This document shows, piece by piece, positions 4,340-28,172 of a stretch of 49,198 nucleotides of DNA. The notes under the pieces were generated by a model that saw only the letters and a program-made list of their open reading frames with translations, searched no databases and was not told the origin of the DNA. A program made the translations under genes and the position numbers. Every line of letters starts with the position of its first letter. Positions within the stretch are counted from its first letter, which is position 1. Source of the stretch: an uncultured Bacteroidota bacterium (GTDB taxonomy: Bacteria; Bacteroidota; Bacteroidia; B-17B0; Aurantibacillaceae); the NCBI GenBank assembly GCA_903834765.1, contig CAILKE010000070.1, positions 1-49,198 of the forward strand, read 5' to 3'.

Positions 4340-4456
4340 ATGATATTACTTTAAAGATACATTAATATTTTACATTTTTTTAGAAAAACATTAATAAAAT
4401 CAAAGTTAACTACCTATTATTTCTTACAAAGCTAATATTTCAAGTACATTTCGCAC

Positions 4457-4470
4457 ATGATAAAAATCAA
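4457..4470. promoter_or_regulatory. FNR-like dyad upstream of the CheB-CheR operon
   Basis: ATGATAAAAATCAA contains a perfect TGAT-N4-ATCA core. It lies about 118 bases before the CheB-CheR start and about 99 bases before the small ORF on the other strand. It is one of several such sites near regulatory and stress genes in the window. Binding is inferred, not shown. Confidence 0.4.
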
Positions 4471-4568
4471 TTTATAAAGTGTATTAATATTTGTTATTTT
4501 CCTTAAAAATAATATTAGTAACAATTATTGATTATTAAAACACATAATTGCATGATATTTAATTGATT

Positions 4569-4712
4569 ATGTCAATTATAAAATTTAAAAAGCCTAATAA
4601 TAGTATAAAAAGAATAAAGCTAAAAAAAGCAGTATTGTCTGCTGAAAGAGTTAGTAAAGTTGAAAATTATCTTGAAATTGAGGTTAAAGTATTTTCTTTT
4701 AAATACACATAA
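4569..4712 (+). CDS. 47-aa basic protein of unknown function
   Basis: ATG to TAA, 47 codons. The protein starts MSIIKFKK, is Lys-rich in its first half, and has a more acidic, valine-rich second half. No family recognised, no signal peptide or membrane segment. Support for a real gene is indirect: it fills an otherwise empty region between CheB-CheR and the CBS gene, and its stop is followed after 13 bases by a strong intrinsic terminator in the right orientation. That terminator also serves the convergent CBS gene, so it does not prove transcription of this ORF. No clear ribosome binding site is visible. Confidence 0.45.
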   Translation: MSIIKFKKPNNSIKRIKLKKAVLSAERVSKVENYLEIEVKVFSFKYT

Positions 4713-4725
4713 CATAAAAAGTTAC

Positions 4726-4755
4726 AAAAAAAGCTGGTATTACCAGCTTTTTTTT
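4726..4755. terminator. Bidirectional intrinsic terminator
   Basis: A perfect inverted repeat AAAAAAAGCTGGTA (4726-4739) pairs with TACCAGCTTTTTTT (4741-4754). It forms a GC-centred stem with a loop of about 5 bases and A/T tracts on both sides. It works for the convergent CBS gene (stop 4 bases away) and for the 47-codon ORF. Confidence 0.85.
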
Positions 4756-4758
4756 GTT

Positions 4759-5283
4759 TTATTCTTCGTCATACATTTCCATTTCATATTCCTCTTGTTC
4801 TATTTTTTCTTTAACCGAATTTTCTCTATCGAAAAGTGATTTAATGGTTTTTGCAAGATTTTCATCTTTTGATGAAACATTACCTAAATCTTCTTTTTCA
4901 TTTAAAGCATGCAAAAGAAGGGTATTAATAGAAATCATACCTTTTAATTTACCTTCATTATTTGTTACAGGCAAGCGGCTAATCTTGTTTTTTCTCATTT
5001 CTTTAAGAGCTTCAAGAATATTAATATCTGCCTTAATAGTATGAACCCTTTCTTTAGGCATTATTTCTTTTACCTTTAGTTCAGATAAATTTTTTGTGGT
5101 ATTATTTGCAAAAGAAAGGCAGATGTCGCGATCAGTAATTATTCCAAGTACTTTATCATCCTTATCAATAACTGGCAAAGCCCCCAAATTAGCGTATTTC
5201 ATGATTTTTGTGGCATTGGCTAATTTTGTTTCTGGAGAGCAGAACTCACCAATACCTTCTGTCATTAAGTCTTTAACTTTCAT
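4759..5283 (-). CDS. Two-CBS-domain protein
   Basis: 174 aa. Two CBS motifs at about residues 3-60 and 70-130 form a Bateman module, which in this family binds adenine nucleotides such as AMP, ATP or related ligands. The first CBS carries the typical GIITDRDI segment. The C-terminal tail (about 135-174) is charged and ends in an acidic run. There is no attached enzyme or transporter domain, so it is a stand-alone nucleotide sensor of unknown target. Such proteins often sit in universal-stress regulons. A perfect GTGA-N6-TCAC dyad lies about 93 bases before the start, suggesting control by a CRP/FNR-type regulator. It is monocistronic, with its own terminator. Confidence 0.85.
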   Translation of the reverse strand: MKVKDLMTEGIGEFCSPETKLANATKIMKYANLGALPVIDKDDKVLGIITDRDICLSFANNTTKNLSELKVKEIMPKERVHTIKADINILEALKEMRKNKISRLPVTNNEGKLKGMISINTLLLHALNEKEDLGNVSSKDENLAKTIKSLFDRENSVKEKIEQEEYEMEMYDEE

Positions 5284-5374
5284 AATAATAAATTTTAAGG
5301 TTTATATTAATTTTATCTTACATCAAAGTTCGTACAACTATATTTTTTATAAAATGAGGTTGCACATATTGCAT

Positions 5375-5390
5375 AGTGATAGAGATCACT
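5375..5390. promoter_or_regulatory. CRP/FNR-type dyad upstream of CBS gene
   Basis: AGTGATAGAGATCACT is a perfect 6-bp-arm palindrome with a 4-base spacer. It fits both GTGA-N6-TCAC (CRP type) and TGAT-N4-ATCA (FNR core). It is the best-formed site of the group and lies about 93 bases before the CBS start codon. Confidence 0.55.
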
Positions 5391-5448
5391 AATTATATAT
5401 GTTAAATTTGGTTAACTCATTTTTTTTATAATAAAAATATTTGCATAT

Positions 5449-5483
5449 AAAAAAAGCGTCCAGAGTTACCTGAACGCTTTTTT
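5449..5483 (-). terminator. Intrinsic terminator of the SprB-repeat adhesin
   Basis: AAAAAGCGTCCAG (5451-5463) pairs with CTGAACGCTTTTT (5470-5482) with a single C-A mismatch and a short loop, flanked by A and T runs. It lies 26 bases beyond the adhesin stop on the minus strand. Confidence 0.7.
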
Positions 5484-5508
5484 GTTTTTAAAACAAACAA
5501 ACAATTAA

Positions 5509-8500
5509 TTATTTACTGATATTAATCTTTTTAGTGATTGTGTTGTTGTTAATATAAACTTTAACAAAATACGTTCCATTTAAAAGATCTGAAGTATATA
5601 CTCTTGCAACAGAAGCGTTAACTTCACTTGCAAAAACTGTTTGACCAAGTAAGTTTACAAACTCAACTTTATCAATTTTATAGCCTAATGCTTCAATAGT
5701 AGCGAACTCATTAGCTGGATTAGGGTAAACTTTTACCTCACCAGCGTTAATTGTAACGTTTGCTATTCCTGCAGCAATACCTACATTAAATGTCATAGAT
5801 GATGTACATCCTTTCCAATCAGTAGTAGTTACCATATATGAACCAGGATTCAAACCAGAGATGTCTTGAGTTGTTGCACCATTTGACCAGATATAAGTAT
5901 AAGGATTAGTTCCACCAGTAGGAGTAATATCAATAGAACCATTTAATGATGATGATGATGAAGCATCATTAATAACACCATTAACAATTAATGGAGCTGA
6001 AGGCTGCGTAACTGTGAAAGTTTTAACGCCTGTACAACCATTAAAATCCGTTACTAATACAGAATAAACTCCAGCTGGAAGATTTCCAATTGATGAAGAA
6101 GTCTCTTCGGTTGACCAGTAAATAGAATATGGAGTAACACCACCTGTAAGATTAAGACTAATCATACCATTATTACCACCAGCACAAGACACGTTATTAA
6201 TACTAGAAGTTAAATTTAAAAGAGCTGGTTCTGAAATTAGATGATTTGTTGTAATGATGCAATTGTTAGCATCTTTCACATAAACAACATAATTCGTATT
6301 TCCTGTTAAACCAGTGAATGAATTTGCTGAAGAATAAGTTGTACCATTAATACTATATAAGTATGGGCTAGTTCCTCCAAAAGCGTTAACATGTATTTCT
6401 CCGTTATTTGCACCATAACAAGTTGAATTTAATGAACCTATAAGGGCAGTAATTTCAGTTGGTTGAACAATTGTAAATGTTGAAGAACCAACACAATTAG
6501 CAGCATCTTTAACTAATACTGTATAACTTCCATTAGATAATGAATTAAATACTGTTCCTGATTGGAAAGAAAAACCACCATTAAGGCTGTATGCTAAAAA
6601 TCCTGCTCCTCCAGAAGCTGCTATTGTTGCAGAACCCGAAGCGCCTCCATAACAAGAAACGCTAGTTGTAGATGGCGCAATTAAGAAAGCATTTGGCTGA
6701 GTAATTACTTTTGTAACTGAAGCAATACATCCGTTTGCATCTTTTACTTGAATAACATAAGTACCAGCAGATAAATCAGTTAATACATTAGATGTTTGGA
6801 AAGAAACACCATCAGTGCTATATAAAATAGTACCAGTTCCTCCTGATATAGTATTAATAGTTACTGATCCATCTTTACCTCCATGACAAGAAACATTTTG
6901 TGAAGATGAAGCTGTAATTGTTGGTCCACCTGCAGAAATAATTACTCCTGAAACTATTTTGTTACATCCTGAACCATCTTTTACCACTACAAAATGCACA
7001 CCAGCATTAAGTGATGAGAATGAACCGGTACCAGCAAAAGTTACTCCATCAATACTATATTGATATCCTGAACCTGAACCACCTGCTGCAACAACCATAA
7101 TTGAACCATTTGTAAAAGTACAAGTAGCATTAGTTGTATTTACAGTAGTAGTAATTGCTGGAGGTTGACTTACAGAAATTACAGAAGATAAACTACAATT
7201 ATTCATATCCATAATTGAAACAGTATATGATCCTGCAGGTAAATTATTAAATGTTCCTACACTAGAATAACCATCTCCTAAACTATAAGAATAACCACCA
7301 TTACCACCAGCAGCTAAAGCCGTGATAGATCCATTTTCCAAACTATTACAAGATGCAGCAACTGTTGATAATGATGCTGTTAACGCTGTAGGTGCAGTAA
7401 CTGCAACCGTTTGTGTTATAACACAGCTCGTTACATCTTTTACATATACCGTATATATACCAGCAGCTAAACCTGAAAAATTTGAACCTGATTGATAAGT
7501 AGTACCATTAAGACTATAATTACGAGTTCCTGTTCCACCTGTAGATGATACATTTATTTGTCCATTGCTTGCTCCATTACAAAGTGCTGGAATAGCAGAT
7601 GTTGTAAGCACTAAAGATGGTCCTTCATAAACATTTATATGTGTATGGTTCGTACAACCTGCATTGTCTTTTACGACACAAGTATATGAACCTGCAGTAA
7701 CACCTGTAAATATACCGATAGATTGGTAAGTAATACCACCGTTAATACTGTATTGAACAGATCCAGTTCCACCGAATGAAGTTAATGTAATAGAACCGTC
7801 ATTACCTCCAAAACAACTTACATTATTAATGTTTGGCAATAATAATATAGGGCCTGTAAGTGAATTGATAATTACTAATGTTGAAGTAGAACAGCCATTT
7901 GCATCTTTTACAGTTAATAAATGAGGACCAGCTGATAAACTTGAAAAAGTTCCACTTGTTAAAAAACTTCCACCATCTAATTTATAAGTTAATGGAGCAA
8001 CTCCTCCTGAAGAAGATGCTGTAAGTGCACCACTATTTGTACCACAACTAGCATTCGTTATTAATACTGGATTTATAGATATTCCTGCTGGTTCTGTGAT
8101 AGTTACAACAGTGCTATTTGTACAACCTTTAGCATCCTTAATATTTAATGTATAAGTCCCCGCTATTAAGCCAGTAAAATTTGGACTTGATTGCCAAGAT
8201 CCGCCATTCTTATTATAAGTATATGGAGCAGCACCAAAATGAGCGCTCGCAACAAAACTTCCGTTATTAGCTCCGTTACAATTTACATTAACAACAGATG
8301 TTGAAGTTACTGCTAATCCAACTGAAACACTACTAGTAAAAGTTTTTGTACAAACTCCTGACCAACCTTCAATTTTTGTTGTTAGAGTAGTAGTATATGC
8401 ACCTCCAGCTGTATATGTATGAGATGGATTCATTGCATTCGATACAGCAGATCCATCACCAAAATTCCAAGCATAATATGTATTTGTAGACATTGCTCTA

Positions 8501-9231
8501 GGCAAAGCTATTTTATTAAACATACTATCCTTTGTCATTTGAGTAGTGTTTGAAAATGTAATTGAACTACCAATACTATAACAAGATGAAGCTGTTGTAA
8601 AACTAGGACTATTTATATTTGACATATTTGGAACAATATAAAAATCTCCATCTTTGCCAAAGCTATTTTTAGCACTACTCCAATTGTTACCTGTAGAAGT
8701 TCCAGCCAACGAAGCTAAATCTTGTCCTCCACCCTCACCATTTCCAGTGTATTGAAGGTTGAAAACATTTCCAAATGGAAACCCGCTTGTAATTTCAACT
8801 GTAACAGCAAAACGATTATTGACAGTAACCCCACCAGGGAATGTTACATTTATATATCCAACACTATTATCAGGTATAGACCACCATGTGTGATTTGATG
8901 AAGCAATTAAAGTAGTTGGCTTGCCACTTGCATCAACGTTATAAACACCAAATTTTAAAGGTACACCAGCTAAAATACCAATACCAGGATAAGATCCATA
9001 AACCCTAACACTTGTTATTTTACCAGGCCCTGAATAATTATATGTTTGAGAAGCCTTTTCCTCAAAACCATTTTGTAATTGATATGCTCCTGTGCCTCCA
9101 ACGTTTTTAAAGCTTACAAAGCCATTTAAATCATCGTTACACGGGGGTGGAGAAACCAAAAGTGTTTGTGCCTGAACGCACGACAACCACAAGCATGCAC
9201 TCGCGGTAAGTAATGTAATTTTCGTTTTCAT
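5509..9231 (-). CDS. Large secreted adhesin with PKD and SprB-like repeats, T9SS type A sorting domain
   Basis: 1240 aa from the ATG at 9231. The open frame runs 31 codons further upstream, but only this ATG puts a signal peptide (MKTKITLLTASACLWLSCVQAQ, about 22 residues in two parts: basic start, hydrophobic core, AQ end) at the N-terminus. The upstream part would also overlap likely operator sites. About residues 25-215 are a secreted domain I do not recognise. A PKD-like domain follows at about 250-300, with the NFGDGS motif. Residues about 310-1155 are 11 SprB-like repeats of about 77 aa. The last 74 residues are a type A T9SS sorting domain starting KVYPNP. The protein should be exported by Sec, moved across the outer membrane by T9SS and anchored on the surface. 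SprB itself is the gliding adhesin, but these repeats also occur in non-gliding surface proteins. It appears monocistronic. Confidence 0.88.
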   Translation of the reverse strand: MKTKITLLTASACLWLSCVQAQTLLVSPPPCNDDLNGFVSFKNVGGTGAYQLQNGFEEKASQTYNYSGPGKITSVRVYGSYPGIGILAGVPLKFGVYNVDASGKPTTLIASSNHTWWSIPDNSVGYINVTFPGGVTVNNRFAVTVEITSGFPFGNVFNLQYTGNGEGGGQDLASLAGTSTGNNWSSAKNSFGKDGDFYIVPNMSNINSPSFTTASSCYSIGSSITFSNTTQMTKDSMFNKIALPRAMSTNTYYAWNFGDGSAVSNAMNPSHTYTAGGAYTTTLTTKIEGWSGVCTKTFTSSVSVGLAVTSTSVVNVNCNGANNGSFVASAHFGAAPYTYNKNGGSWQSSPNFTGLIAGTYTLNIKDAKGCTNSTVVTITEPAGISINPVLITNASCGTNSGALTASSSGGVAPLTYKLDGGSFLTSGTFSSLSAGPHLLTVKDANGCSTSTLVIINSLTGPILLLPNINNVSCFGGNDGSITLTSFGGTGSVQYSINGGITYQSIGIFTGVTAGSYTCVVKDNAGCTNHTHINVYEGPSLVLTTSAIPALCNGASNGQINVSSTGGTGTRNYSLNGTTYQSGSNFSGLAAGIYTVYVKDVTSCVITQTVAVTAPTALTASLSTVAASCNSLENGSITALAAGGNGGYSYSLGDGYSSVGTFNNLPAGSYTVSIMDMNNCSLSSVISVSQPPAITTTVNTTNATCTFTNGSIMVVAAGGSGSGYQYSIDGVTFAGTGSFSSLNAGVHFVVVKDGSGCNKIVSGVIISAGGPTITASSSQNVSCHGGKDGSVTINTISGGTGTILYSTDGVSFQTSNVLTDLSAGTYVIQVKDANGCIASVTKVITQPNAFLIAPSTTSVSCYGGASGSATIAASGGAGFLAYSLNGGFSFQSGTVFNSLSNGSYTVLVKDAANCVGSSTFTIVQPTEITALIGSLNSTCYGANNGEIHVNAFGGTSPYLYSINGTTYSSANSFTGLTGNTNYVVYVKDANNCIITTNHLISEPALLNLTSSINNVSCAGGNNGMISLNLTGGVTPYSIYWSTEETSSSIGNLPAGVYSVLVTDFNGCTGVKTFTVTQPSAPLIVNGVINDASSSSSLNGSIDITPTGGTNPYTYIWSNGATTQDISGLNPGSYMVTTTDWKGCTSSMTFNVGIAAGIANVTINAGEVKVYPNPANEFATIEALGYKIDKVEFVNLLGQTVFASEVNASVARVYTSDLLNGTYFVKVYINNNTITKKINISK
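5767..8304 (-). repeat. Eleven tandem SprB-like repeats in the adhesin gene
   Basis: Each unit is about 70-77 codons with the pattern C-x-G-(A/G)-x-x-G-x-I/V near its start, a YS-x-(N/D)G turn, AG-x-Y/H, then VKD-x-x-G/N-C at the end. Ten units keep both cysteines. The last unit, nearest the sorting domain, has lost the first cysteine, where a serine run occurs. The repeats are diverged in DNA, so this is an old array and not a recent duplication. Confidence 0.85.
5947..5961 (-). repeat. In-frame TCA microsatellite (five Ser codons)
   Basis: Five TGA units on the plus strand read as five consecutive TCA serine codons in the adhesin. They sit exactly where the first cysteine of the eleventh SprB-like repeat is expected. 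Slippage here would change the protein by single serines without breaking the frame. Confidence 0.6.
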
Positions 9232-9310
9232 TTTTTTTAAGTTTAATTTGTTACGATGCAAAAGAACAAAAGGTATGTGTTTGGCTAAATGTGAGAACTC
9301 ACAAGCATAA

Positions 9311-9340
9311 GTGAACTTAATCACAATTGATTATTGTCAT
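9311..9340. promoter_or_regulatory. Two adjacent CRP/FNR-like dyads upstream of the adhesin
   Basis: GTGAACTTAATCAC (9311-9324) fits GTGA-N6-TCAC exactly. TTGATTATTGTCAT (9327-9340) fits TGA-N6-TCA. They start 16 bases apart and lie 80-109 bases before the adhesin ATG, in the shared region with the divergent helicase gene. Confidence 0.4.
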
Positions 9341-11825: not shown

Positions 11826-12854
11826 ATGAGATTAGTATTTACCATATTGCTTTTATCCATAATTTCAGGCTGTTCGGTAGATCCTGAAATTAAACCAATT
11901 ATCGCAGCAGATAATATTAAAGAAATTATTCCTGATGGTTGGCCTACACCCTATTATAATTTTAGTAATAATCCCTTAACTCCAGATGGATTTATTTTAG
12001 GTAGAACACTTTTTTACGATCCTATTTTTTCATCTGATAATACTATATCGTGTGGCTCTTGCCATCAACAATTTGCTGCCTTTGCTAATTTAGCTCATGA
12101 TGTAAGTCACGGCGTAAATGGCTTATTAGGAAAACGAAATACACCAGCTCTTCAAAACTTAAATTGGAATACTAGCTTTGCTCATGATGGCGGTGTAACT
12201 AATTTAGAGTTCTTCCCATCGGTACCAATTACTCTTCCTTACGAAATGAATGAAACAATTAATCATGTGGTTTTAAAAATTAGTAATAGTTCTAAATATA
12301 AACCTCTATTAATTGCGGCTTTTGGCAATGATACGGTAACCTCTCAACGTTTGTTTAAAGCCTTAGCTCAATTTACAGGAACCATGTATTCATTTAATAG
12401 TAAATATGATCAAGTAAAAAAAGGCAAAGACACATATACTCCTCAAGAGCAAATCGGTTATAATTTATTTGTTCAAAAATGTGCAACCTGTCATAAAGAA
12501 CCATTGTTTAGTGATTATCTATTTAGGAACATAGGACTAAGTATTAACCCAGCGTATAACGATAGTGGTAGAGCGCACATTACAGGAAATGCCTCAGACA
12601 GATTTAAATTTAAAACACCTTCACTAAGAAATATTGAAAAAAGCGCTCCCTATGCGCACGATGGACGATACTCTTCCCTTACTCAACTGCTTAGTAATCA
12701 TTTTACAGGAACTGGAGGGTATGCCCCTACGCTTGACGCACAAATACAAGCAGGAATATCATTAACAACACAAGAGATGAATGACATTATTACATTTCTG
12801 AATACATTAACAGATCCTACTTTCTTAACAGATAAACGCTTTTCGGAAAATTAA
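11826..12854 (+). CDS. Di-heme cytochrome c peroxidase family protein (MbnH/MauG-like)
   Basis: 342 aa lipoprotein with lipobox cysteine C16. Two c-type heme sites are visible: CGSCH (C76, C79, H80) and CATCH (C219, C222, H223). The LGKRNTPAL segment (about 101-109), FAHDGG (about 118-123) and the C-terminal KTPSLRN...PYAHDGR pattern are typical of the CcpA/MauG family. The start codon directly follows the stop of the MbnP-like gene, so the two are translationally linked. In MbnH this enzyme forms a bis-Fe(IV) state and converts a Trp of MbnP to kynurenine. It would sit in the periplasm, or on the membrane as a lipoprotein. A plain H2O2-detoxifying peroxidase is the alternative, but the gene pair argues against it. 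Confidence 0.87.
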   Translation: MRLVFTILLLSIISGCSVDPEIKPIIAADNIKEIIPDGWPTPYYNFSNNPLTPDGFILGRTLFYDPIFSSDNTISCGSCHQQFAAFANLAHDVSHGVNGLLGKRNTPALQNLNWNTSFAHDGGVTNLEFFPSVPITLPYEMNETINHVVLKISNSSKYKPLLIAAFGNDTVTSQRLFKALAQFTGTMYSFNSKYDQVKKGKDTYTPQEQIGYNLFVQKCATCHKEPLFSDYLFRNIGLSINPAYNDSGRAHITGNASDRFKFKTPSLRNIEKSAPYAHDGRYSSLTQLLSNHFTGTGGYAPTLDAQIQAGISLTTQEMNDIITFLNTLTDPTFLTDKRFSEN

Positions 12855-16488: not shown

Positions 16489-16636
16489 AGTGGTTATATT
16501 TAATTGATAACAAAAAAACAAAAAGGATATATCAACTTAAATAAAAAAAATCACAGAATTAAATGATATTAAACATAGTGTAGAATTCTCATAAAAATAA
16601 AAACTAAGTGCTCACTTATTTTTGATTGCATAAATA

Positions 16637-17974
16637 TTAAAAACCAAATGGATATGTTTCAGGAATCTGATGATTGTTTGATTCAACATGAAGAGGATAT
16701 AAGGCTTTTGTTTTATCAAGAAATATAAATGCATCATACCTCATAGGCATAATACTAGGTACGTAATTTCCAAGCTGATCCCGCATAGGATTATAAACTA
16801 CTCCAATTGCTCGATGTCCTATATGAGTTGAAAGACAAGAGATATCCTTAATATGATGCATCATTAATAATTTATTTTTTCCATTTGCAGCTTGATGAAA
16901 CAATTGTTCCCAGCTACCAACCTTTGCTTGCGGAATGGTAACTTTCCTAATAGCATCTCCCCAATTATTTCCTGCAATTACAGTTCCTTGATAAGACCCA
17001 AAACCTATAGCTACTACTCCATCCTTAGCATATTTCTCAGTTAAGAGTTGGCCTACATTTACCATTCCATCACCTATCATATCAGTAGCTCTAGCATCAC
17101 CAATATGAGTGTTGTGTTCCCAAATAATAATCTTTGCTTTATCTCCATGAAATTTCATTAAACGATCAATTGTAGATACCATATGATTATCTCTAATATT
17201 CCATGATCTTGGTCCACCCTGTATCATAGCACGATAATATCTTTCGGCATTAACTGCTATGATTGCATTTTGCTCGGTACTAAACACATTTTCAACATCA
17301 GAATTATAATTAGAAATTTTACTTCTAATTTCAATAAGAAGATCTAATACTGCTTGCTCGCACATTTCAGGGATAAATGCTGATGCTCTTGCATAAGACT
17401 GTCCTTCATCATCACCATAAGATTCAAAACAATTTAAAACCTTTTTAGCGGTATTAAAAGCATGTATATCATATTTTTTTAAATAAACCATCATAGCTTC
17501 CAAGGATTCTCGAAAACTATAAACATCTAATCCATAGAATCCAATTTTTTTATTGTTTGCCAAACTTGAATTAAATTTTTTTAGCCAATCAATAAAAGCA
17601 ACCATTTCCCAATTACCCCACATCCATGTTGGCCAACGATTAAAGGATTGTAGCACCTCATGTGAGCTATTACCTGATTGAGGATAATGTTTAACATATC
17701 TATTAACACGTGAGCAATCTGGCCAATCACCTTCAACTGAAATAAAAGAAAAGTTTTTTTCTTTTATTAAGCGTTGTGTAATTTTCATTCTCCATGTATA
17801 ATATTCATGGGTTCCATGTGATGCCTCTCCAATCAATACATATTTAGCATCTCCAATATATTCTATTAAAGGATCCAAGTCATCAATAGTTTCAAGTGGT
17901 TGCGCATGATGGCGTAAAGCATTGACAGCCTCTTCCGCATCAAATTTCGAAAATATGTTATTATCTATTCTCAT
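16637..17974 (-). CDS. Erythromycin-esterase-family protein
   Basis: 445 aa. The family signature GEASHGTHEYY has E50 and H53, which match the catalytic Glu and His of EreB. A second conserved acidic site is VEGDWPD (E81), and WEHNTHIGDAR (285-295) is near the C-terminal half. Members in environmental Bacteroidota are usually not macrolide resistance enzymes. Many lie in stress or oxygen-limitation gene sets, as here, and the substrate is unknown. No signal peptide, so cytoplasmic. An FNR-like dyad (ATGATAAAATTCAC) lies 45-58 bases upstream of the ATG. It is transcribed divergently from the response regulator. Confidence 0.88.
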   Translation of the reverse strand: MRIDNNIFSKFDAEEAVNALRHHAQPLETIDDLDPLIEYIGDAKYVLIGEASHGTHEYYTWRMKITQRLIKEKNFSFISVEGDWPDCSRVNRYVKHYPQSGNSSHEVLQSFNRWPTWMWGNWEMVAFIDWLKKFNSSLANNKKIGFYGLDVYSFRESLEAMMVYLKKYDIHAFNTAKKVLNCFESYGDDEGQSYARASAFIPEMCEQAVLDLLIEIRSKISNYNSDVENVFSTEQNAIIAVNAERYYRAMIQGGPRSWNIRDNHMVSTIDRLMKFHGDKAKIIIWEHNTHIGDARATDMIGDGMVNVGQLLTEKYAKDGVVAIGFGSYQGTVIAGNNWGDAIRKVTIPQAKVGSWEQLFHQAANGKNKLLMMHHIKDISCLSTHIGHRAIGVVYNPMRDQLGNYVPSIMPMRYDAFIFLDKTKALYPLHVESNNHQIPETYPFGF

Positions 17975-18018
17975 ATCTTAGTTTTTTACAAAAAAAGAAA
18001 TTATAGATTTTATTTTCA

Positions 18019-18032
18019 ATGATAAAATTCAC
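18019..18032. promoter_or_regulatory. FNR-like dyad upstream of the esterase gene
   Basis: ATGATAAAATTCAC fits TGA-N6-TCAC and differs from TGAT-N4-ATCA at one base. It is centred about 51 bases upstream of the esterase start codon, a position usual for class I or II activation. Confidence 0.4.
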
Positions 18033-18185
18033 ATTATATTATAGTTACTCTCATTATAAAAAATAGAAATATAAAATACGTTTGTACTATAACAATTTAT
18101 GTTAAAAAACAAAATGAACAGACAGATAAATTTTATATTAAACGATTAAGTTCTAATTTATCTTTAAAACAAAGGAATATAAAGA

Positions 18186-18333
18186 TTAGCATAATTAGCA
18201 TAATACCTAGCCTTTATGGATTTAGAATCAAATAAACTGGAAAGTAGTGATTAAACTCACACACTTTAAGATTAAAATCACACATTAAGATGAATATATA
18301 GCATAACTTAGCATAATAATAAAATTAACATAA
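18186..18333. promoter_or_regulatory. Iterated TTAGCATAA motif in front of the response regulator
   Basis: An exact tandem pair TTAGCATAA occurs at 18186-18194 and 18195-18203. A third exact copy is at 18308-18316. Variants are ATAGCATAA at 18298-18306 and TTAACATAA at 18325-18333. The last lies 17 bases before the start codon. The copies flank the FNR-like dyads and could be sites for a second regulator or part of the promoter. Confidence 0.4.
18246..18290. promoter_or_regulatory. Tandem FNR/CRP-like dyads, probable autoregulatory site
   Basis: AGTGATTAAACTCACA (18246-18261) fits GTGA-N6-TCAC. A weaker copy AGATTAAAATCACA lies exactly 21 bases (two helical turns) further on. The 20-base stretches from 18251 and 18272 are recognisable direct repeats. 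Both are 60-104 bases before the response-regulator ATG. Confidence 0.45.
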
Positions 18334-18349
18334 TATTAAAAAACATAGT

Positions 18350-19414
18350 ATGACAAAAAATGTATTAATAATTGAGGATAGTGATGATGTTAGAGAGAAC
18401 ATGAAAGAAATACTCGAACTTTCAAGCTACAAGGTTCATACAGCTTGTAATGGTATAGAAGGATTAGAAATGGTTCGTAAAAATTCTCCAGATATTATCC
18501 TTTGTGATGTTATGATGCCAGAGTTAGATGGATATGGCGTTTTGAGAGGTCTATCAAATAATCCAAAAACTAAAAATATCCCATTTATCTTTGTTACTGC
18601 TAAATCTGAGAAACAAGATTTTAGAACAGGTATGGATCTTGGTGCCGACGATTATCTTACGAAACCCTTTAATGGCAATGACTTACTAAGTTTAGTGAGC
18701 GCAAGATTAAAAAAAGCGGAAATAATAAGCGAATTATTAAAATATAATAGTAATGATTTAGAAGACTTTTTATTAAATCCAGATATTTCAATTGATAACA
18801 TTTATAACATTAGTGATAAAATCATTCCGAAAAAAATAAAAAAGAAAGAAATTCTTTTTTTAGAAGGAGATTCAGCTAAATACTTGTACTTCCTTGTTTC
18901 AGGTAAAATAAAAACATTCAAAACCAATGAACAAGGTAAAGAATATATAACCCAAGTTCATAAAGAAAAAGATTTTTTTGGCTATTCATCATTGCTTGAA
19001 ACTAACATCTATCAAGATACAGCTATTGCCATTGAAGAATCTGAAGTAGCATCCATTACTAAACAAGATTTTCATCAGTTACTCTTGTCTAACAATGAAC
19101 TATATACGAAGTTTATTAAATTCATAACTTCAGATCTTACTGAAACACACGAAAAATTAATTAAGTTAGCATACGATTCTGCGCGCAAAAGAGTAGCTGA
19201 ATCAATATTATACTTAGCTAAAAAATACCATCCTATTTTAGAAAATAATATTTCATTTTCAGTATGCAGAGATGATATATCTTCTATTTCTGGGGTTTCA
19301 CCTGAATCTGTAAGTAGAAATTTAACAGACTTACGTTCAGAAAAATTAATTGAGTTACAAAATGGAAAAGTAAAAATCCTTGATGTAAAAAAGTTAGCAA
19401 ACCTAAAGAATTAA
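18350..19414 (+). CDS. Response regulator with CRP/FNR-type output (REC-cNMP-HTH fusion)
   Basis: 354 aa. Receiver domain (about 1-120) with the acidic pair D10/D12-13, phosphoacceptor D53, T83 and K105 all present. A cyclic-nucleotide-binding-type beta barrel follows (about 155-260), then a long helix and a Crp-type winged helix (about 275-350). The recognition helix reads SPESVSRNL, with E319, S322 and R323 in the spacing of FNR (E-x-x-S-R), which reads TTGAT half sites. There is no N-terminal cysteine cluster, so input is by phosphorylation and not by an Fe-S centre. No histidine kinase is adjacent. FNR-like dyads occur in its own promoter and in front of several neighbours, so it is the best candidate to control this island. 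Confidence 0.9.
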   Translation: MTKNVLIIEDSDDVRENMKEILELSSYKVHTACNGIEGLEMVRKNSPDIILCDVMMPELDGYGVLRGLSNNPKTKNIPFIFVTAKSEKQDFRTGMDLGADDYLTKPFNGNDLLSLVSARLKKAEIISELLKYNSNDLEDFLLNPDISIDNIYNISDKIIPKKIKKKEILFLEGDSAKYLYFLVSGKIKTFKTNEQGKEYITQVHKEKDFFGYSSLLETNIYQDTAIAIEESEVASITKQDFHQLLLSNNELYTKFIKFITSDLTETHEKLIKLAYDSARKRVAESILYLAKKYHPILENNISFSVCRDDISSISGVSPESVSRNLTDLRSEKLIELQNGKVKILDVKKLANLKN

Positions 19415-19432
19415 ACATTCATTCAGATTACC

Positions 19433-19651
19433 ATGAGCTTTCCGAAACAAAAACCAGACATTGAGACTATCCCTCGGACTAATCCTGTGAAACCAATTGA
19501 ACCTGAAATTATTCCAGAGCCAGCAAAAACAGAACCAAATCCACATATACCTGAAATTAAACCAAATCCTATACCTGAAATCGAACCATTAAATATACCT
19601 GAAATCAATCCAGAACCTTCGCCAGGAATAGAACCAGATAAAGAAGAATAA
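19433..19651 (+). CDS. Pro/Glu-rich small protein with PEI repeats
   Basis: 72 aa. After MSFPKQKPD the protein is made almost wholly of short Pro-Glu-Ile/Pro-Asn units such as IPEIKPNPIPEIEP and ends in an acidic tail. It should be extended or disordered. It starts 18 bases after the response regulator stop, so is very likely cotranscribed. Similar Pro-rich small proteins occur in other Bacteroidota, but I know of no function. The antisense frame is also open because of the repeats but would encode an unlikely Gly/Ser/Ile polymer. Confidence 0.65.
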   Translation: MSFPKQKPDIETIPRTNPVKPIEPEIIPEPAKTEPNPHIPEIKPNPIPEIEPLNIPEINPEPSPGIEPDKEE

Positions 19652-19690
19652 ATTTACTATACTAAACAGTTAGACTTAAATAAAAATTCT

Positions 19691-20098
19691 ATGAAAATAT
19701 TTTTGACAATAATTCTTGCCTTGTCAATATGCAATGCAAATGCACAAGATACCATTAGTAATATTAGTGGCCCTCATGGAGGAAGAATAAAATCTATTCA
19801 AAATTACAACATAGAAGTATTAGGAACCTATCACAGAGTTATTACTTATTTATTTGATAAAGATTTAAAGCCAATTTCAAACAAAGGTATTAATGGAAAT
19901 ATATTATTTTTTTATGCTGATAATGCCAGCTTAAATATAAAATTAAAACCATACGAAATTAATGGTTTCTATGCTGAAATATCTGCGACCGATTATTATT
20001 ATTGCGTAGTAAATTTAAGTATTTATGGGAAGACAATATCTTCAAAATTTGATAATTTATCGCAATTAGCAGAAAAAGAAAATAAAATAAAAAAATAG
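19691..20098 (+). CDS. Small secreted protein with GPHGG motif, unknown function
   Basis: 135 aa. Cleavable signal peptide of about 19 residues ending NANAQ. The mature protein begins with an SGPHGG segment (about 26-31), followed by beta-rich stretches with YLFDKDLKPISNKGI and a C-terminal Lys/Glu tail. The fold looks like a small periplasmic beta-sandwich. I have the impression that short GPHGG proteins recur in Bacteroidota beside metal or stress genes, but I cannot name a family. It follows the Pro-rich gene by 39 bases, so may be part of the response-regulator transcript. Confidence 0.65.
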   Translation: MKIFLTIILALSICNANAQDTISNISGPHGGRIKSIQNYNIEVLGTYHRVITYLFDKDLKPISNKGINGNILFFYADNASLNIKLKPYEINGFYAEISATDYYYCVVNLSIYGKTISSKFDNLSQLAEKENKIKK

Positions 20099-20120
20099 CA
20101 TTTAATAAACTGTAAAATAA

Positions 20121-20381
20121 TTAAAAGCATTTGATGGGGTTTCCATATAAATCAAAACCAATGCCGTCCATATCAGAATATACATCCTCGTCTATTACTG
20201 AATAATCATTCAAATAATTATATGGCTCTGGTAGGCATTTATTCATTTCATTATTATTTTGAAATTCACTTTCCATAAAATTATTTATTTTTTGACGAAG
20301 TTTATTGAAAGATGAATATATCATATCTGATAATCTACGTTTACGTATTTCGGAAATTCTTAATTGCTTTTTCATAATCAA
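20121..20381 (-). CDS. Hypothetical protein, 86 aa
   Basis: No family recognised. The N-terminal half is basic and helical (RISEIRKRRLSDMIYSSFNK), and the C-terminal half is acidic with a DMDGIGFDLYGNPIKCF end. Mixed composition and few rare codons make it look like a real protein and not an AT-rich artefact. Start may be the first ATG or the one two codons later. It is convergent with the GPHGG gene and divergent from the nitroreductase. Confidence 0.5.
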   Translation of the reverse strand: MIMKKQLRISEIRKRRLSDMIYSSFNKLRQKINNFMESEFQNNNEMNKCLPEPYNYLNDYSVIDEDVYSDMDGIGFDLYGNPIKCF

Positions 20382-20690
20382 ATTATTTAATACGTTTTTA
20401 TTGTTTTATGTAAAGTACTTTATAGATAAATAATTCTATTGAGAATAAGTCATTTATCAATTCAAGTAATTGTAATTCATCATTTTATTCTTTATTACTA
20501 ATTTATTTCATAACAATATTAAACAAGAAATAAAGCTAATACTAAGTCAATCATCACATTAAGGCGTGATAGAAATCAAATTTGAAAAAACACAAAGAGA
20601 GTTCACTTATAATAATGAGAAGCATCATTTAATAATGTTACTTGGGTAATTAACTTCGTGGATAATAGAAACTGTATAGCAAATAATATT
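20382..20690. other. 309-base divergent intergenic region
   Basis: Between the 86-aa gene and the nitroreductase. It contains an FNR-like dyad at 20566-20579, and ATCAC/GTGAT arms around it at 20553-20570. Otherwise AT-rich with no gene or terminator that I can support. Confidence 0.5.
20566..20579. promoter_or_regulatory. FNR-like dyad upstream of nitroreductase
   Basis: GTGATAGAAATCAA holds a perfect TGAT-N4-ATCA core and differs from the site before the CBS gene in only a few bases. It is about 112 bases upstream of the chosen nitroreductase start. Confidence 0.45.
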
Positions 20691-21338
20691 ATGAATAACA
20701 ATATATCAGAATTAGTTGAAATAAAACAAACAGATAAAATTTGTATAAGCGATGTTTTAAAAAAAATATTTGAAAGGAGATCTGTCAGAAAATATAGCAC
20801 CAAAGAAGTAACGAAAGATTTGATAGAACAAATACTAGCTGCAGGTAAAATGGCACCTTCAGCAATGAATAAACAACCTTGGAGATTTTATGTTATGTTA
20901 AATAAAGAGGATATTAATTTATTTTCAAAAGAAATCCTTAAAGCCGGATTAAAAAGTATTCCTCAAATGGGAATCAAAAATTTAATCAATACTATAGTTT
21001 CTGGCATTAGTCAATTATCACATGGGATTGATTTTTTTAAAGATAAAGATCCTATTTTTCATGGAGCGCCAGTAGTTATTTTCATCACAGCTCCAAAATA
21101 TGACGAATGGGCAAGTTTAGATATAGGTATGTGTTCTCAAAATATGATGCTAGCAGCAAAATCTTTAGGTATAGATAGCTGTCCGATTGGATTTGGAAAA
21201 TTCGTTGAAAAAACTCCACATTACAGTAAATTAGGAATTCCCTTAAGTGAACAAGTGCATCTAGCAATCATTTTTGGTTATGGAGAAGAATCTCCATTAA
21301 ATCCTAAAAGAACTAATCATAACGTTTTTTATAAATAA
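20691..21338 (+). CDS. Nitroreductase-family FMN oxidoreductase
   Basis: 215 aa from the ATG at 20691; a GTG 11 codons earlier is possible but adds only unconserved residues. The FMN-binding signature RRSVRKY (29-35) and APSAMNKQPWRF (about 55-66) are clear. SCPIGFG and the C-terminal FGYGEE segment match the flavin-binding C-terminal half. The family uses NAD(P)H to reduce nitroaromatics, quinones or flavins; the natural substrate cannot be read from the sequence. It lies in the stress island with an FNR-like site upstream, which fits control by low oxygen or redox state. Confidence 0.9.
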   Translation: MNNNISELVEIKQTDKICISDVLKKIFERRSVRKYSTKEVTKDLIEQILAAGKMAPSAMNKQPWRFYVMLNKEDINLFSKEILKAGLKSIPQMGIKNLINTIVSGISQLSHGIDFFKDKDPIFHGAPVVIFITAPKYDEWASLDIGMCSQNMMLAAKSLGIDSCPIGFGKFVEKTPHYSKLGIPLSEQVHLAIIFGYGEESPLNPKRTNHNVFYK

Positions 21339-21349
21339 CATATATTTTT

Positions 21350-21363
21350 TTGATTAGAATCAT
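21350..21363. promoter_or_regulatory. FNR-like dyad upstream of coiled-coil lipoprotein
   Basis: TTGATTAGAATCAT holds a perfect TGAT-N4-ATCA core with a TTGAT left half like the FNR consensus. It is 77 bases before the lipoprotein ATG and 12 bases after the nitroreductase stop. Confidence 0.45.
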
Positions 21364-21439
21364 TTTGGCCAATGAGATTACACATGGTTTTGCCTAACAT
21401 TTATCTGTTTTTTTGTCCTAAATTTTATAAACATAAAAG

Positions 21440-22303
21440 ATGAAAAATAATGTATTTATAATTATGATAGCACTTTCAATTGTTGCTTGTAATACAAAAC
21501 CACAAACAGATAATGTAGCCGAACGAGAAAGAGATTCCCTTCAAATTATGGTCAATCAGCGCGATTCAAAAATACGGGAATTCTTAGCTTCATTTGTAGA
21601 CATTGAGCATACATTAGATTCCATAAATATAAAACAAAAAAATATTTACTTAAAAACAGAAAAGCCAAGTGATGTCAAAGCTGGAATTGTTGATGATATT
21701 AATAGAGAAATTTCAGCTATTAATTCCTTAATGGATAAAAATAGAAAAAAAATATCTGACTTAAATTCTCGGTTAAAAAATTCTGGTGGTAAAAATAAAG
21801 AATTGGAAGATGCTATAAAAACATTGAATCAGCAATTATCTCAAAAACAAGAAGAGATAGTTGAGATGAATTCAAAGTTAAACATTTTAAATGCTGAAAT
21901 CATGCAACTTCAAGCTTCAGTAGGATTTCTAAGTGTAGAAAATGCAACGCAAACTGACATGATTGTAACAGAAACTGCAGAACTTCATAAAGCCTTTTAC
22001 ATTATTGGTACCTCTAAAGATCTTGAAAACGAAAATATTATTGATAAAAAAGGAGGATTACTAGGGATTGGGAAAACGAAAGATCTAAGTAATAATTTCG
22101 ATGCGAAAAAATTTACACAAATTGATTATACACAACTTATTTCGATTGAAATTAATAGCAAAAAAGCAGAAATTATTACTACACATCCTACAAGTTCTTA
22201 TCGTTTAGAAAAAGATAAAAACCTTATTAAAAACTTAATTATACTAGATGCCAAAGAGTTTTGGAGCGCTTCAAAATACCTTGTAATAATTAAAGGTTCT
22301 TAA
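21440..22303 (+). CDS. Coiled-coil lipoprotein
   Basis: 287 aa. Lipobox with C17 (SIVAC) after a short hydrophobic segment. Residues about 25-165 are a heptad-rich coiled coil containing Asn/Gln/Lys-rich stretches, and the last 110 residues are a globular domain with GGLLGIGKTKDL and THPTSSYRLEK. The general plan matches Bacteroidota periplasmic lipoproteins often annotated only as hypothetical, sometimes found near stress genes. Preceded by an FNR-like dyad; probably the first gene of a unit with the next lipoprotein (39-base gap). Confidence 0.7.
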   Translation: MKNNVFIIMIALSIVACNTKPQTDNVAERERDSLQIMVNQRDSKIREFLASFVDIEHTLDSINIKQKNIYLKTEKPSDVKAGIVDDINREISAINSLMDKNRKKISDLNSRLKNSGGKNKELEDAIKTLNQQLSQKQEEIVEMNSKLNILNAEIMQLQASVGFLSVENATQTDMIVTETAELHKAFYIIGTSKDLENENIIDKKGGLLGIGKTKDLSNNFDAKKFTQIDYTQLISIEINSKKAEIITTHPTSSYRLEKDKNLIKNLIILDAKEFWSASKYLVIIKGS

Positions 22304-22843: not shown

Positions 22844-22949
22844 AACAAGGCATCATCGTAATTATGAGTTATGTAAAATTATCTTATGACTCGCTTCTTA
22901 AATAAGCCACTTTGCAGTTTATACACTAGTATATTTTAAATACATTTAA

Positions 22950-23789
22950 ATGAAAACTATTCTTGTCCCAACTGATTTCTCAGTAAATGCAGAGAATGCC
23001 TTACACTTTGCTATTATATTAGCCAAGCAACAAAAAGCAACATTAATCTTGCTTCATGTTTATCAAATGCCCATAGCAGTTTCACCTGTACCTTTTAATT
23101 TATTAATCCTCGAAAAAGAAGAAGCTAAAGAGAATGCTACAACTAAACTAAGAACACTTAGCGCCCAAATTGATCATGCTGGTGGAATTTCATATGAGTA
23201 CCTTCTTGAAGAAGGAGAAACCGTTGAAGCTATATCAAATATTGTTAAAGTTAAAAATGTTGATTTAATTGTTATGGGAACAAAAGGTGCAAGCGGTTTA
23301 GCTGGCGTTATTTTTGGGAGTATTGCAACAAGTGTTATTGAAAAAGTAACTTGCCCTGTAATGTCTATACCAGAAAGAACTTCCTTGATAAAACCTATCA
23401 AAAAAATAACTTATGCAACTGATTATAATACAAATGATAATCTTATCATAGGAAAAATAATTGAAATAGCCGAACCCATAAATGCACAGGTAACTATTAT
23501 TCATATTTCCGGATCTGAAATTTCACCTAATGAAGAATCTAAATTAAGGAGCAGTTTTATGAAAAAAGTAAATGACGTTATTAGTTATAACAACATATCG
23601 TTTCAAATGCTTCATGGACAAGACGTGGAAGAGCAGTTAGAAAAATATATAGCAGATGAATCAACAGACATCCTAATTTTAGCTACTCATCACCGAAGCT
23701 TTTTTGATCGTCTTTTCGAAAAAAGTATTACCAAGGATCTTGCACTTAAGGCAACTATTCCTTTGGTAGCCTTTCACTATAATAATTAA
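22950..23789 (+). CDS. Tandem universal stress protein (UspA family)
   Basis: 279 aa with two Usp domains (about 1-142 and 150-279). The first has the ATP-binding motif G-x2-G-x9-G-S (G110, G113, G123, S124), so it should bind ATP. In the second the loop is altered (THHRSFFDRLFEKS), so it probably does not bind in the same way. Tandem Usps are common in Bacteroidota stress and anaerobic regulons, often with CRP/FNR-type regulators as here. No FNR-like site was found directly upstream; readthrough from the lipoprotein genes is possible. Confidence 0.9.
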   Translation: MKTILVPTDFSVNAENALHFAIILAKQQKATLILLHVYQMPIAVSPVPFNLLILEKEEAKENATTKLRTLSAQIDHAGGISYEYLLEEGETVEAISNIVKVKNVDLIVMGTKGASGLAGVIFGSIATSVIEKVTCPVMSIPERTSLIKPIKKITYATDYNTNDNLIIGKIIEIAEPINAQVTIIHISGSEISPNEESKLRSSFMKKVNDVISYNNISFQMLHGQDVEEQLEKYIADESTDILILATHHRSFFDRLFEKSITKDLALKATIPLVAFHYNN

Positions 23790-27209: not shown

Positions 27210-28172
27210 ATGATTAAGCTACTATTCTTCGGCTCTTTTTTAAGCATAACACTTACATTTAGTTCTTGTTCAGAAAATAAATCTACTATTAAACCATTAA
27301 AAAAACCAAATTCCATCGAGGAATTAGGCGAATTATTATTCAACGATTCTTTATTATCACGAGGAAGCCAAGTAAGTTGCGCCTCTTGCCATAAGGCTCA
27401 GTTCGCCTTTGCAGATAACACACCTGTGAGCTTTGGTGTTGACAGCGCTAAAGGAGGAAGAAATACGCCAAGCGCGATGAATTTAGCTGGACATAGTTTC
27501 TTTTTTTGGGATGGACGATCCGAAACCTTGGAAGAGCAAACGGTTGGACCAATAGAAAACCCTGTAGAAATGGATATTCCCTTATCCGAAGTGGTTCGCA
27601 GACTTAATGCTCATCCTCAATACCAAGAATTTTTTGTAAGTTTATTTGGACATCAAGCTGATAAACAATCGATAGTAGCGGCCATATCAGCCTACGAAAA
27701 CTCTTTATCTACTATCAATACAGCCTTTGACAATTATATGAACGGAAAAGACACGACTCAATTTACAGCTGCTGCTAAGCGTGGAAGAAAAATTTTTAAT
27801 GTGAAGGGAAAATGTTTCGATTGCCATTTTGGTCCTGATTTTACAGCAGACCAGTTTAAAAATATCGGCATCTTTAATGGAAAAGACATCAATGATAGCG
27901 GACGTTTTGTAGTGACTCGCAACCCAAATGATATTGGCCGTTTTAAAGTTCCTGGTTTAAGAAACATCGCTGTAACCGCTCCATATATGCATGATGGGAG
28001 ATTTAAAACCTTAAAAGAAGTGATTGATTATTATGATGAACCTGATAAATTCATCCCTAATTATGTAAACAGAGATACACTTTTAAAGAAACCCTTAGCT
28101 CTTACTCCCCAAGAAAAGCAAGACTTAGAAGAATTTTTAGTATCACTTACTGATAAGCAATTTATTAAATAA
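27210..28172 (+). CDS. Di-heme cytochrome c peroxidase (CcpA/MauG family), lipoprotein
   Basis: 320 aa. Lipobox cysteine C20 (TFSSC). Heme sites CASCH (C57, C60, H61) and CFDCH (C202, C205, H206). GGRNTPSAMN (82-91), FFWDGRSETLEEQ (98-110) and a C-terminal FKVPGLRNIAVTAPYMHDGRF segment are typical of bacterial cytochrome c peroxidases, which reduce H2O2 in the periplasm. Unlike the di-heme gene at 11826, there is no MbnP-like partner here, so a classical peroxidase is more likely. Single gene, ending 2 bases before the convergent STAS gene. Confidence 0.9.
   Translation: MIKLLFFGSFLSITLTFSSCSENKSTIKPLKKPNSIEELGELLFNDSLLSRGSQVSCASCHKAQFAFADNTPVSFGVDSAKGGRNTPSAMNLAGHSFFFWDGRSETLEEQTVGPIENPVEMDIPLSEVVRRLNAHPQYQEFFVSLFGHQADKQSIVAAISAYENSLSTINTAFDNYMNGKDTTQFTAAAKRGRKIFNVKGKCFDCHFGPDFTADQFKNIGIFNGKDINDSGRFVVTRNPNDIGRFKVPGLRNIAVTAPYMHDGRFKTLKEVIDYYDEPDKFIPNYVNRDTLLKKPLALTPQEKQDLEEFLVSLTDKQFIK

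Follow-up and report, generated by a model that had tools for sequence, protein, structure and literature searches.

The window analyzed here is the whole 49,198 nucleotides (49 kb) of contig CAILKE010000070.1 from an uncultured Bacteroidota bacterium (assembly GCA_903834765.1), whose genome comprises 3.63 Mb in 79 contigs. It encodes a response regulator with a CRP/FNR-type output domain, and a first-pass annotation, made from the letters alone, had proposed that six FNR-like dyads mark a regulon of this regulator. Its type IX secretion tails, SprB repeats and -7 boxes are in keeping with Bacteroidota. All six dyads were found to within about a base of the positions claimed; TGAT is present in all six, and in four the TGAT-N4-ATCA core is perfect. 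The regulator gene and the dyads are as follows.

18350-19414, plus strand: response regulator with receiver, cyclic-nucleotide-binding-fold domain and Crp-type helix-turn-helix (HTH), by Pfam and residues
4458: dyad TGATAAAAATCA, CheB-CheR side
5377: dyad TGATAGAGATCA, CBS side
18020: dyad TGATAAAATTCA, esterase side
18248: dyad TGATTAAACTCA, regulator
20567: dyad TGATAGAAATCA, claimed for a nitroreductase
21351: dyad TGATTAGAATCA, lipoprotein

The receiver domain matches PF00072 (9.7e-30) and has E9, D10, D53, T83 and K105. Matches to PF00027 (3.4e-22) and PF13545 (1.9e-13) place the regulator in the CRP/FNR superfamily, and its residues E319, S322 and R323, which had been named as FNR-type recognition residues, were read correctly.

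The dyads had been judged more frequent than chance, and within the window this held: TGAT-N4-ATCA occurs 7 times versus 1.89 expected, with 0 of 100 shuffles reaching 7, and GTGA-N6-TCAC occurs 3 times versus 0.34 expected. Three of the seven cores (27127, 28439 and 35352) fall within likely genes, and a fourth (5377) lies within the listed open reading frame (ORF) 5096-5392, which runs antisense to the CBS gene and is unlikely to be real. The excess did not extend to the genome, where 152 cores were counted, versus 97 for the reversed pattern and approximately 139 for the window shuffle rate scaled to 3.63 Mb, so that the bare core is not clearly enriched there. Because the genome-wide count is near chance, a single dyad defines no regulon here, and single-dyad enrichment was dropped as the signal.

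The operator is instead two TGA-N6-TCA dyads 22 bp apart, measured start to start, and not a single FNR box. Its consensus is roughly [A/C]TGA[T/C]N4[A/G]TCA[T/G], repeated after 22 bp (two helical turns), and the base before the first TGA is A at a frequency of 0.48, C at 0.31 and T at 0.10 (110 sites, both directions). Such pairs were first met in related genomes, ahead of genes homologous to that of the regulator. In 18 loci (292 kb) that had been selected, without knowledge of the pair, for containing a homolog of the window regulator or the stand-alone HTH protein, 28 pairs have a spacing of 22 and 2 a spacing of 23, and every other spacing from 12 to 60 occurs at most once; first-order Markov copies of these loci gave a mean of 0.03 pairs at spacing 22. 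DNA between ORFs makes up 11% of this set and holds 23 of the 28 pairs. Twenty-nine protein-picked loci from other families (117 kb) contained 17 pairs at spacing 22, with no other spacing seen more than once. A larger count of 73 pairs at 22 bp includes loci chosen by pattern, and the conclusions therefore rest on the protein-picked sets. Exact pairs number 377 in 87 genomes of the family, versus 6 for a control in which the pattern is read backwards. The window's own genome has 6 exact pairs and a one-mismatch list of 20, three of them in the window. Pairs with up to two mismatches were rejected as too loose a criterion (229 versus 138 in the control).

The pairs stand in a fixed register to a Bacteroidota -7 promoter box. 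TAnnTTTG starts 24 nt past the pair in 48 of 220 orientations, equivalent to 46 of the 110 distinct sites; the +23 offset has 6 occurrences and no remaining offset more than two. The other families gave the same offset in 13 of 23 sites (10 of 17 in protein-picked loci), with any other offset seen at most once; this register set consisted of 36 loci, 7 of which (L181-L187) had been chosen by pattern. The six dyads first noticed had been picked without regard to any -7 box. Their register score of 26 tops the 60 offsets compared (the runner-up has 22); none of 20,000 random placements attained it, and 3 of 20,000 did so when placements were confined to intergenic DNA. TAnnTTTG spans -12 to -5 relative to mapped start sites in Flavobacterium psychrophilum (PMC9723704). 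Taken with the +24 register, this box position means that the near dyad spans -47 to -36, with its center at -41.5, and that the far dyad is centered at about -63.5. Escherichia coli CRP sites are centered at -41.5 in class II and at -61.5 in class I (PMC5957442). No column between the end of the pair and the -7 box exceeds 0.06 bit, and therefore no -33 element is apparent. From these positions we infer an activator layout in which two dimers on the same face of the DNA would activate transcription.

The window was scored with an ungapped composite matrix that covers the pair and the -7 box and was trained on 56 sites from other genomes only. Five places score at least 16 (0 of 40 Markov windows contain any such place), ranked as the CBS, lipoprotein, SprB-repeat, shared esterase/regulator and 20121-20381 operators. 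All window scores are from this matrix unless labeled R1; the R1 sequence model, being local and allowing gaps, ranks the window sites differently. Operators and the genes they face are listed below.

5355-5388, minus strand: tandem operator TGATCTCTATCA + TGTGCAACCTCA, best window score 23.8, one mismatch to the exact pair; -7-like box GAACTTTG at 5324-5331 (minus)
4759-5283, minus strand: CBS-domain protein (Pfam), predicted target
21351-21384, plus strand: tandem operator TGATTAGAATCA + TGAGATTACACA, score 22.2, one mismatch to the exact pair; -7-like box TTTTTTTG at 21408-21415 (plus)
21440-22303, plus strand: predicted lipoprotein, predicted target
9290-9323, minus strand: tandem operator TGATTAAGTTCA + TGAGTTCTCACA, score 22.1, one mismatch, new relative to the original six; -7-like box TTCTTTTG at 9259-9266 (minus)
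5509-9231, minus strand: SprB-repeat/PKD protein with a type IX secretion tail (Pfam), predicted target
18020-18053, both strands: operator shared by esterase and regulator, TGATAAAATTCA + TAGTTACTCTCA, spacing 22, scores 21.8 (plus, to the regulator) and 13.8 (minus, to the esterase); -7 boxes TACGTTTG at 18077-18084 (plus) and TTTTTTTG at 17989-17996 (minus)
16637-17974, minus strand: erythromycin-esterase family protein (Pfam), predicted target
18248-18280, plus strand: near tandem operator of the regulator, TGATTAAACTCA at 18248-18259 + AGATTAAAATCA at 18269-18280, spacing 21; -7-like box TAACTTAG at 18304-18311 (plus), in register, predicted start site near 18316
20545-20578, minus strand: tandem operator facing the gene at 20121-20381, score 20.05; -7-like box TAATATTG at 20514-20521 (minus)
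20121-20381, minus strand: small protein of 84-86 aa without a Pfam match, predicted target
20594-20627, plus strand: weaker tandem operator AAAGAGAGTTCA + TGAGAAGCATCA facing the nitroreductase, score 14.7 (R1 20.4 bits, E 2.4e-5 in the window); -7-like box TAACTTCG at 20651-20658 (plus)
20658-21338, plus strand: nitroreductase (ATG at 20691; Pfam), predicted target
22865-22898, plus strand: weak operator TGAGTTATGTAA + TGACTCGCTTCT, score 13.3; -7-like box TACACTAG at 22922-22929 (plus)
22950-23789, plus strand: universal stress protein with two Usp domains (Pfam), possible target
4458-4469, minus strand: one good dyad, far dyad degenerate, composite score 2.9 (R1 15.1 bits); perfect in-register -7 box TAGCTTTG at 4427-4434 (minus)
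1364-4339, minus strand: CheB-CheR-PAS protein (Pfam), possible target, followed by a PAS histidine kinase at 79-1356

The dyad at 20566 had been assigned to the nitroreductase. That assignment is corrected, because the dyad (20567), its partner and their -7 box point at the minus-strand gene 20121-20381. Of the two sites claimed outside the regulator island, the one before the CBS gene proved to be a full tandem operator, and the one before CheB-CheR is a half operator only. Elsewhere in the genome the sites are closer to perfect than in the window, and half-site preference may vary among paralogs.

When related genomes were compared, the operator recurred before homologs of the regulator, the lipoprotein, the SprB-type protein and the universal stress protein. 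A scan of genome contigs with the window regulator protein gave 22 loci, three of which are close full-length relatives, all from metagenome assemblies. These three orthologs (L017, L018 and L019; 80, 77 and 67% identical) each have a spacing-22 pair and a -7-like box upstream, with the end of the pair 71-78 bp before the start codon. Lipoprotein homologs with an operator lie at L047:1622-2482 (56% identical, score 25.6) and L049:3020-3895 (34%, 17.9), the Usp homolog at L048:8177-9073 (45% identical) has an operator scoring 30.7, and the SprB-type homolog at L050:10622-14275 (47% identical) one scoring 27.8.

Own promoters were scored in 58 loci, from which L029, L191, L194, L196, L206, L210, L214 and repeats had been excluded beforehand. 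A composite score of at least 14 was found upstream of the regulator, or of the kinase-regulator operon, in 22 of 35 family loci versus 0.0086% of shuffled regions; the weights derive from family sites, among them some of these same promoters.

Pair and regulator gene also tend to occur together. Among genomes of the family, a pair is present in 65 of 70 with a regulator match (E < 1e-35, fragments counted) and in 7 of 17 without one. In 97 genomes from other families of the class, pairs were found in 43 of 55 with a full-length regulator match versus 12 of 42 without (p = 6e-8), and within one genus in 7 of 7 versus 2 of 16 (p = 1.5e-4). These statistics ignore kinship, and only the within-genus contrast addresses relatedness. 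In G003, 18 of 21 pairs fall within 125 kb around its two regulator genes; G004 also has two regulator genes, and the two stretches that surround them contain all 15 of its pairs. Spacing, register, intergenic placement, conservation, own-promoter sites and co-occurrence together support the earlier proposal of a regulon of FNR-like sites tied to the receiver-CRP regulator.

The FNR-type label itself stands only in part. The E..SR recognition residues and the TGA-N6-TCA dyads agree with it. FNR proper has a [4Fe-4S] cysteine cluster, mostly N-terminal, and its sites are TTGAT-N4-ATCAA. The window regulator has cysteines only at 33, 52 and 306, of which 33 and 52 lie within the receiver, and its operator is tandem. 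Lacking the iron-sulfur cysteines, and with mostly A or C in front of TGA in its sites, the window regulator is not FNR, and its logic is closer to FixJ plus FixK. Receiver and CRP domains are in one chain by Pfam, so there is no separate FixJ to activate fixK. CRP has a conserved arginine at a position where the window regulator has YQDTA (221-225), and binding of cyclic AMP by the window regulator is not expected.

The widespread regulator is the kinase-linked paralog, found in this genome on contig C79, and the window regulator is a paralog without an adjacent kinase. The HTH recognition helix reads E..IR in five kinase-linked paralogs of family f1, and E..SR in the clade of the window regulator and in examples from f5 and f2. 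A histidine kinase is linked to the common paralog in 39 of the 58 loci scored for their own promoter; 8 of the 23 other-family loci have no linked kinase within the 1.5 kb of flank covered. In one locus (L056) the kinase PAS domain has FixL as its best PDB match (2e-17), followed by a multi-sensor kinase and DosP, and the PAS domain of the linked kinase in the window's own genome matches entry 10jx (1e-14) and then FixL (1e-11). The alignment comprised 42 kinases, 40 of them linked and the other two (the L022 and window kinases) of another type; the histidine aligned to the heme-ligating histidine of FixL is kept in 39 of the 40 linked kinases.

A FixL-type kinase was rejected as a candidate for the window paralog. 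None is adjacent to the window regulator or its closest orthologs, and the PAS domain of the window kinase at 79-1356 had no PDB match at 1e-5. This kinase, on the minus strand and without the FixL-type histidine, might instead partner the orphan regulator. In L051, a CheB-CheR homolog (67%) and a similar kinase adjoin the regulator.

The genes downstream point to low-oxygen respiration. In the window's own genome, an exact pair lies 36 bp before a FixI-like gene and another 39 bp before FixS. Next after FixS come a COX1-FixO fusion, FixP, FixG and FixH; the -7 box that precedes FixS (AATTTTAC) is a poor one. A third exact pair stands before the gene of a 110-aa protein, itself located behind a radical-SAM protein whose start resembles HemN, and a one-mismatch pair lies between a beta-CASP nuclease gene and a Usp gene. 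CsbD, BON and Usp genes elsewhere are likewise preceded by operators. Of 69 downstream genes found, 68 were tallied by Pfam (65 from relatives and 3 from the own genome; L127:19812-20000, incomplete, was excluded), giving 9 kinases, 7 DoxX, 4 Usp, 3 Hsp20, 3 FixI-type ATPases, 2 FixS, 1 COX1 and 1 FixO. The cbb3 oxidase and the fix assembly genes are standard microaerobic targets, and such gene content is that of a FixK/FNR-type microaerobic regulon, here extended by stress genes. The FixI-like copper ATPase (L121 4090-6509, contig C46) reads as two ORFs, 4090-4632 with the metal-binding domains and 4662-6509 with the ATPase domains, which may reflect a split gene or an assembly error.

Starting from the operator, its register, the downstream genes, the co-occurrence and the kinase linkage observed above, we propose that the receiver-CRP regulator acts through the paired operator as a low-oxygen regulon of the FixL/FixJ/FixK type in which FixJ and FixK are fused, a reading to which we give a probability of roughly 75%. 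Low oxygen would switch the FixL-like, putative heme-PAS kinase behind which the widespread paralog is encoded, and the kinase would phosphorylate the receiver, whereupon the CRP part would bind cooperatively. Two dimers of the regulator, both on one DNA face, would occupy the pair and recruit RNA polymerase from both dyad positions, at about -63.5 and -41.5. The predicted targets comprise the cbb3 oxidase/fix cluster, Usp, Hsp20, BON, CsbD, DoxX and CBS genes and others like them, together with the regulator's own gene; the window regulator would be a kinase-less paralog inside a block of such target genes.

Several observations weigh against this reading. None of the genome's 6 exact pairs lies in the window. 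Closest to the regulator is a pair with a spacing of 21 bp and not 22; the spacing-22 model gives that site (L016) only -1.4. A perfect in-register TAnnTTTG is absent from over half of the sites. Scores upstream of the regulator fall below 14 in 13 of 35 family loci and in 22 of 23 other-family loci, several of which still contain clear pairs. A regulator match without any pair was seen in 5 genomes of the family and in 12 of 55 in other families, and pairs without a detected full regulator in G018 (10), G067 (6), G236 (6), G469 (6), G359 (4) and G103 (3). The arginine of the FixL pocket is missing from the f1 family kinases and present in several other-family kinases, and a stand-alone CRP protein on contig C28, a third HTH_Crp_2 protein of the genome, also has E..SR in its recognition helix. 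In G236 and G469, both of genus g38, the sites may serve a diverged regulator or some other CRP-type protein.

The pocket arginine has a role in the heme pocket of FixL, and heme-PAS kinases can respond to ligands besides oxygen. Its absence from the f1 kinases, together with the many stress genes downstream (Usp, BON, CsbD, Hsp20 and CBS), would fit a regulon that is real but whose kinase senses nitric oxide, redox state or general stress. We regard this as unlikely, though deserving of serious weight, since the cbb3 oxidase and fix assembly genes have the operator and the PAS domain is closest to FixL, then to the multi-sensor kinase and DosP.

It is improbable, in our estimate, that the operator is bound by another protein of the CRP/FNR family, such as the C28 protein, with the receiver-CRP genes merely among its targets. 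Sites before a receiver-CRP gene show only that the gene is a target, and the pairs in G018, G067, G236 and G469, without a detected full receiver-CRP gene, would suit such a binder. Against it, 14 of the 16 genomes lacking the gene in the genus described above have no pairs, whereas all 7 with it do; the class-wide contrast points the same way, both contrasts covering the receiver-CRP gene only, and pairs crowd around the receiver-CRP genes in G003 and G004. Because the C28 protein shares E..SR, the link of site to protein is still one that we infer, though now better supported. The C28 protein (L060, 3863 bases; 1595-2227) adjoins rhodanese- and thioredoxin-like genes and is a possible competitor for the dyads.

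Chance dyads in AT-rich intergenic DNA, which the near-chance genome-wide count of the bare core would favor, are refuted as the origin of the pair with near certainty by its non-random spacing, -7 register, placement and co-occurrence, and only single dyads without a partner or -7 box may be chance.

The proposed FixJ-FixK fusion pathway can be set beside three known systems. With FixL-FixJ-FixK, the rhizobial cascade, it shares, by sequence only, a FixL-type PAS kinase, a response regulator, an activator of the CRP/FNR fold and cbb3 (fixNOP-GHIS) targets. It differs in joining receiver and CRP output in one protein, without a separate FixJ HTH step, and in its 22-bp pair operator, Bacteroidota -7 promoter and many Usp, BON and Hsp20 stress targets. 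E. coli FNR has in common with it E..SR (in the window paralog), TGA-N6-TCA dyads and a near site at about -41.5; the receiver domain, the lack of the iron-sulfur cysteine set, the tandem site and the mostly A or C, rather than T, before TGA set it apart. As in E. coli CRP promoters, one dyad is centered at -41.5 (class II) and the second is near the class I position of -61.5, but here the second dyad is fixed at about -63.5 wherever the pair occurs, and cyclic AMP is not expected to bind. A receiver-CRP regulon with a tandem operator was not found described in the literature searched, which consisted largely of titles and abstracts and is weak evidence of novelty; the accessible part of PMC8510549 does not mention "receiver".

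The evidence leaves evenly balanced the broader proposition that much of the class uses a one-step pathway from FixL to the FixJ-FixK fusion, with a rigid double box through which both low-oxygen respiration and dormancy-like stress genes would be switched. In that scheme, two CRP-fold dimers sitting on adjacent turns would be held together by their phosphorylated receivers as a single activating unit that takes the place of the -33 element, and this promoter architecture would be new for Bacteroidota. For a regulator family that occurs in several families of the class, the operator and its place in the promoter are now given exactly, which makes targets callable by sequence in Bacteroidota and predicts how these bacteria may turn on a high-affinity oxidase and stress genes at low oxygen. 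The model predicts that a half-turn shift of one dyad would collapse activation. It also raises the questions of how a receiver controls a CRP-fold dimer and why a kinase-less paralog sits amid like target genes.

Elsewhere in the window, two di-heme cytochrome c peroxidase/MauG proteins (11826-12854 and 27210-28172, by Pfam) have no operator prominent upstream in the list of composite scores. Further matches to the composite model lie at 16542 (12.6), 33660 (11.7) and 40592 (12.6).

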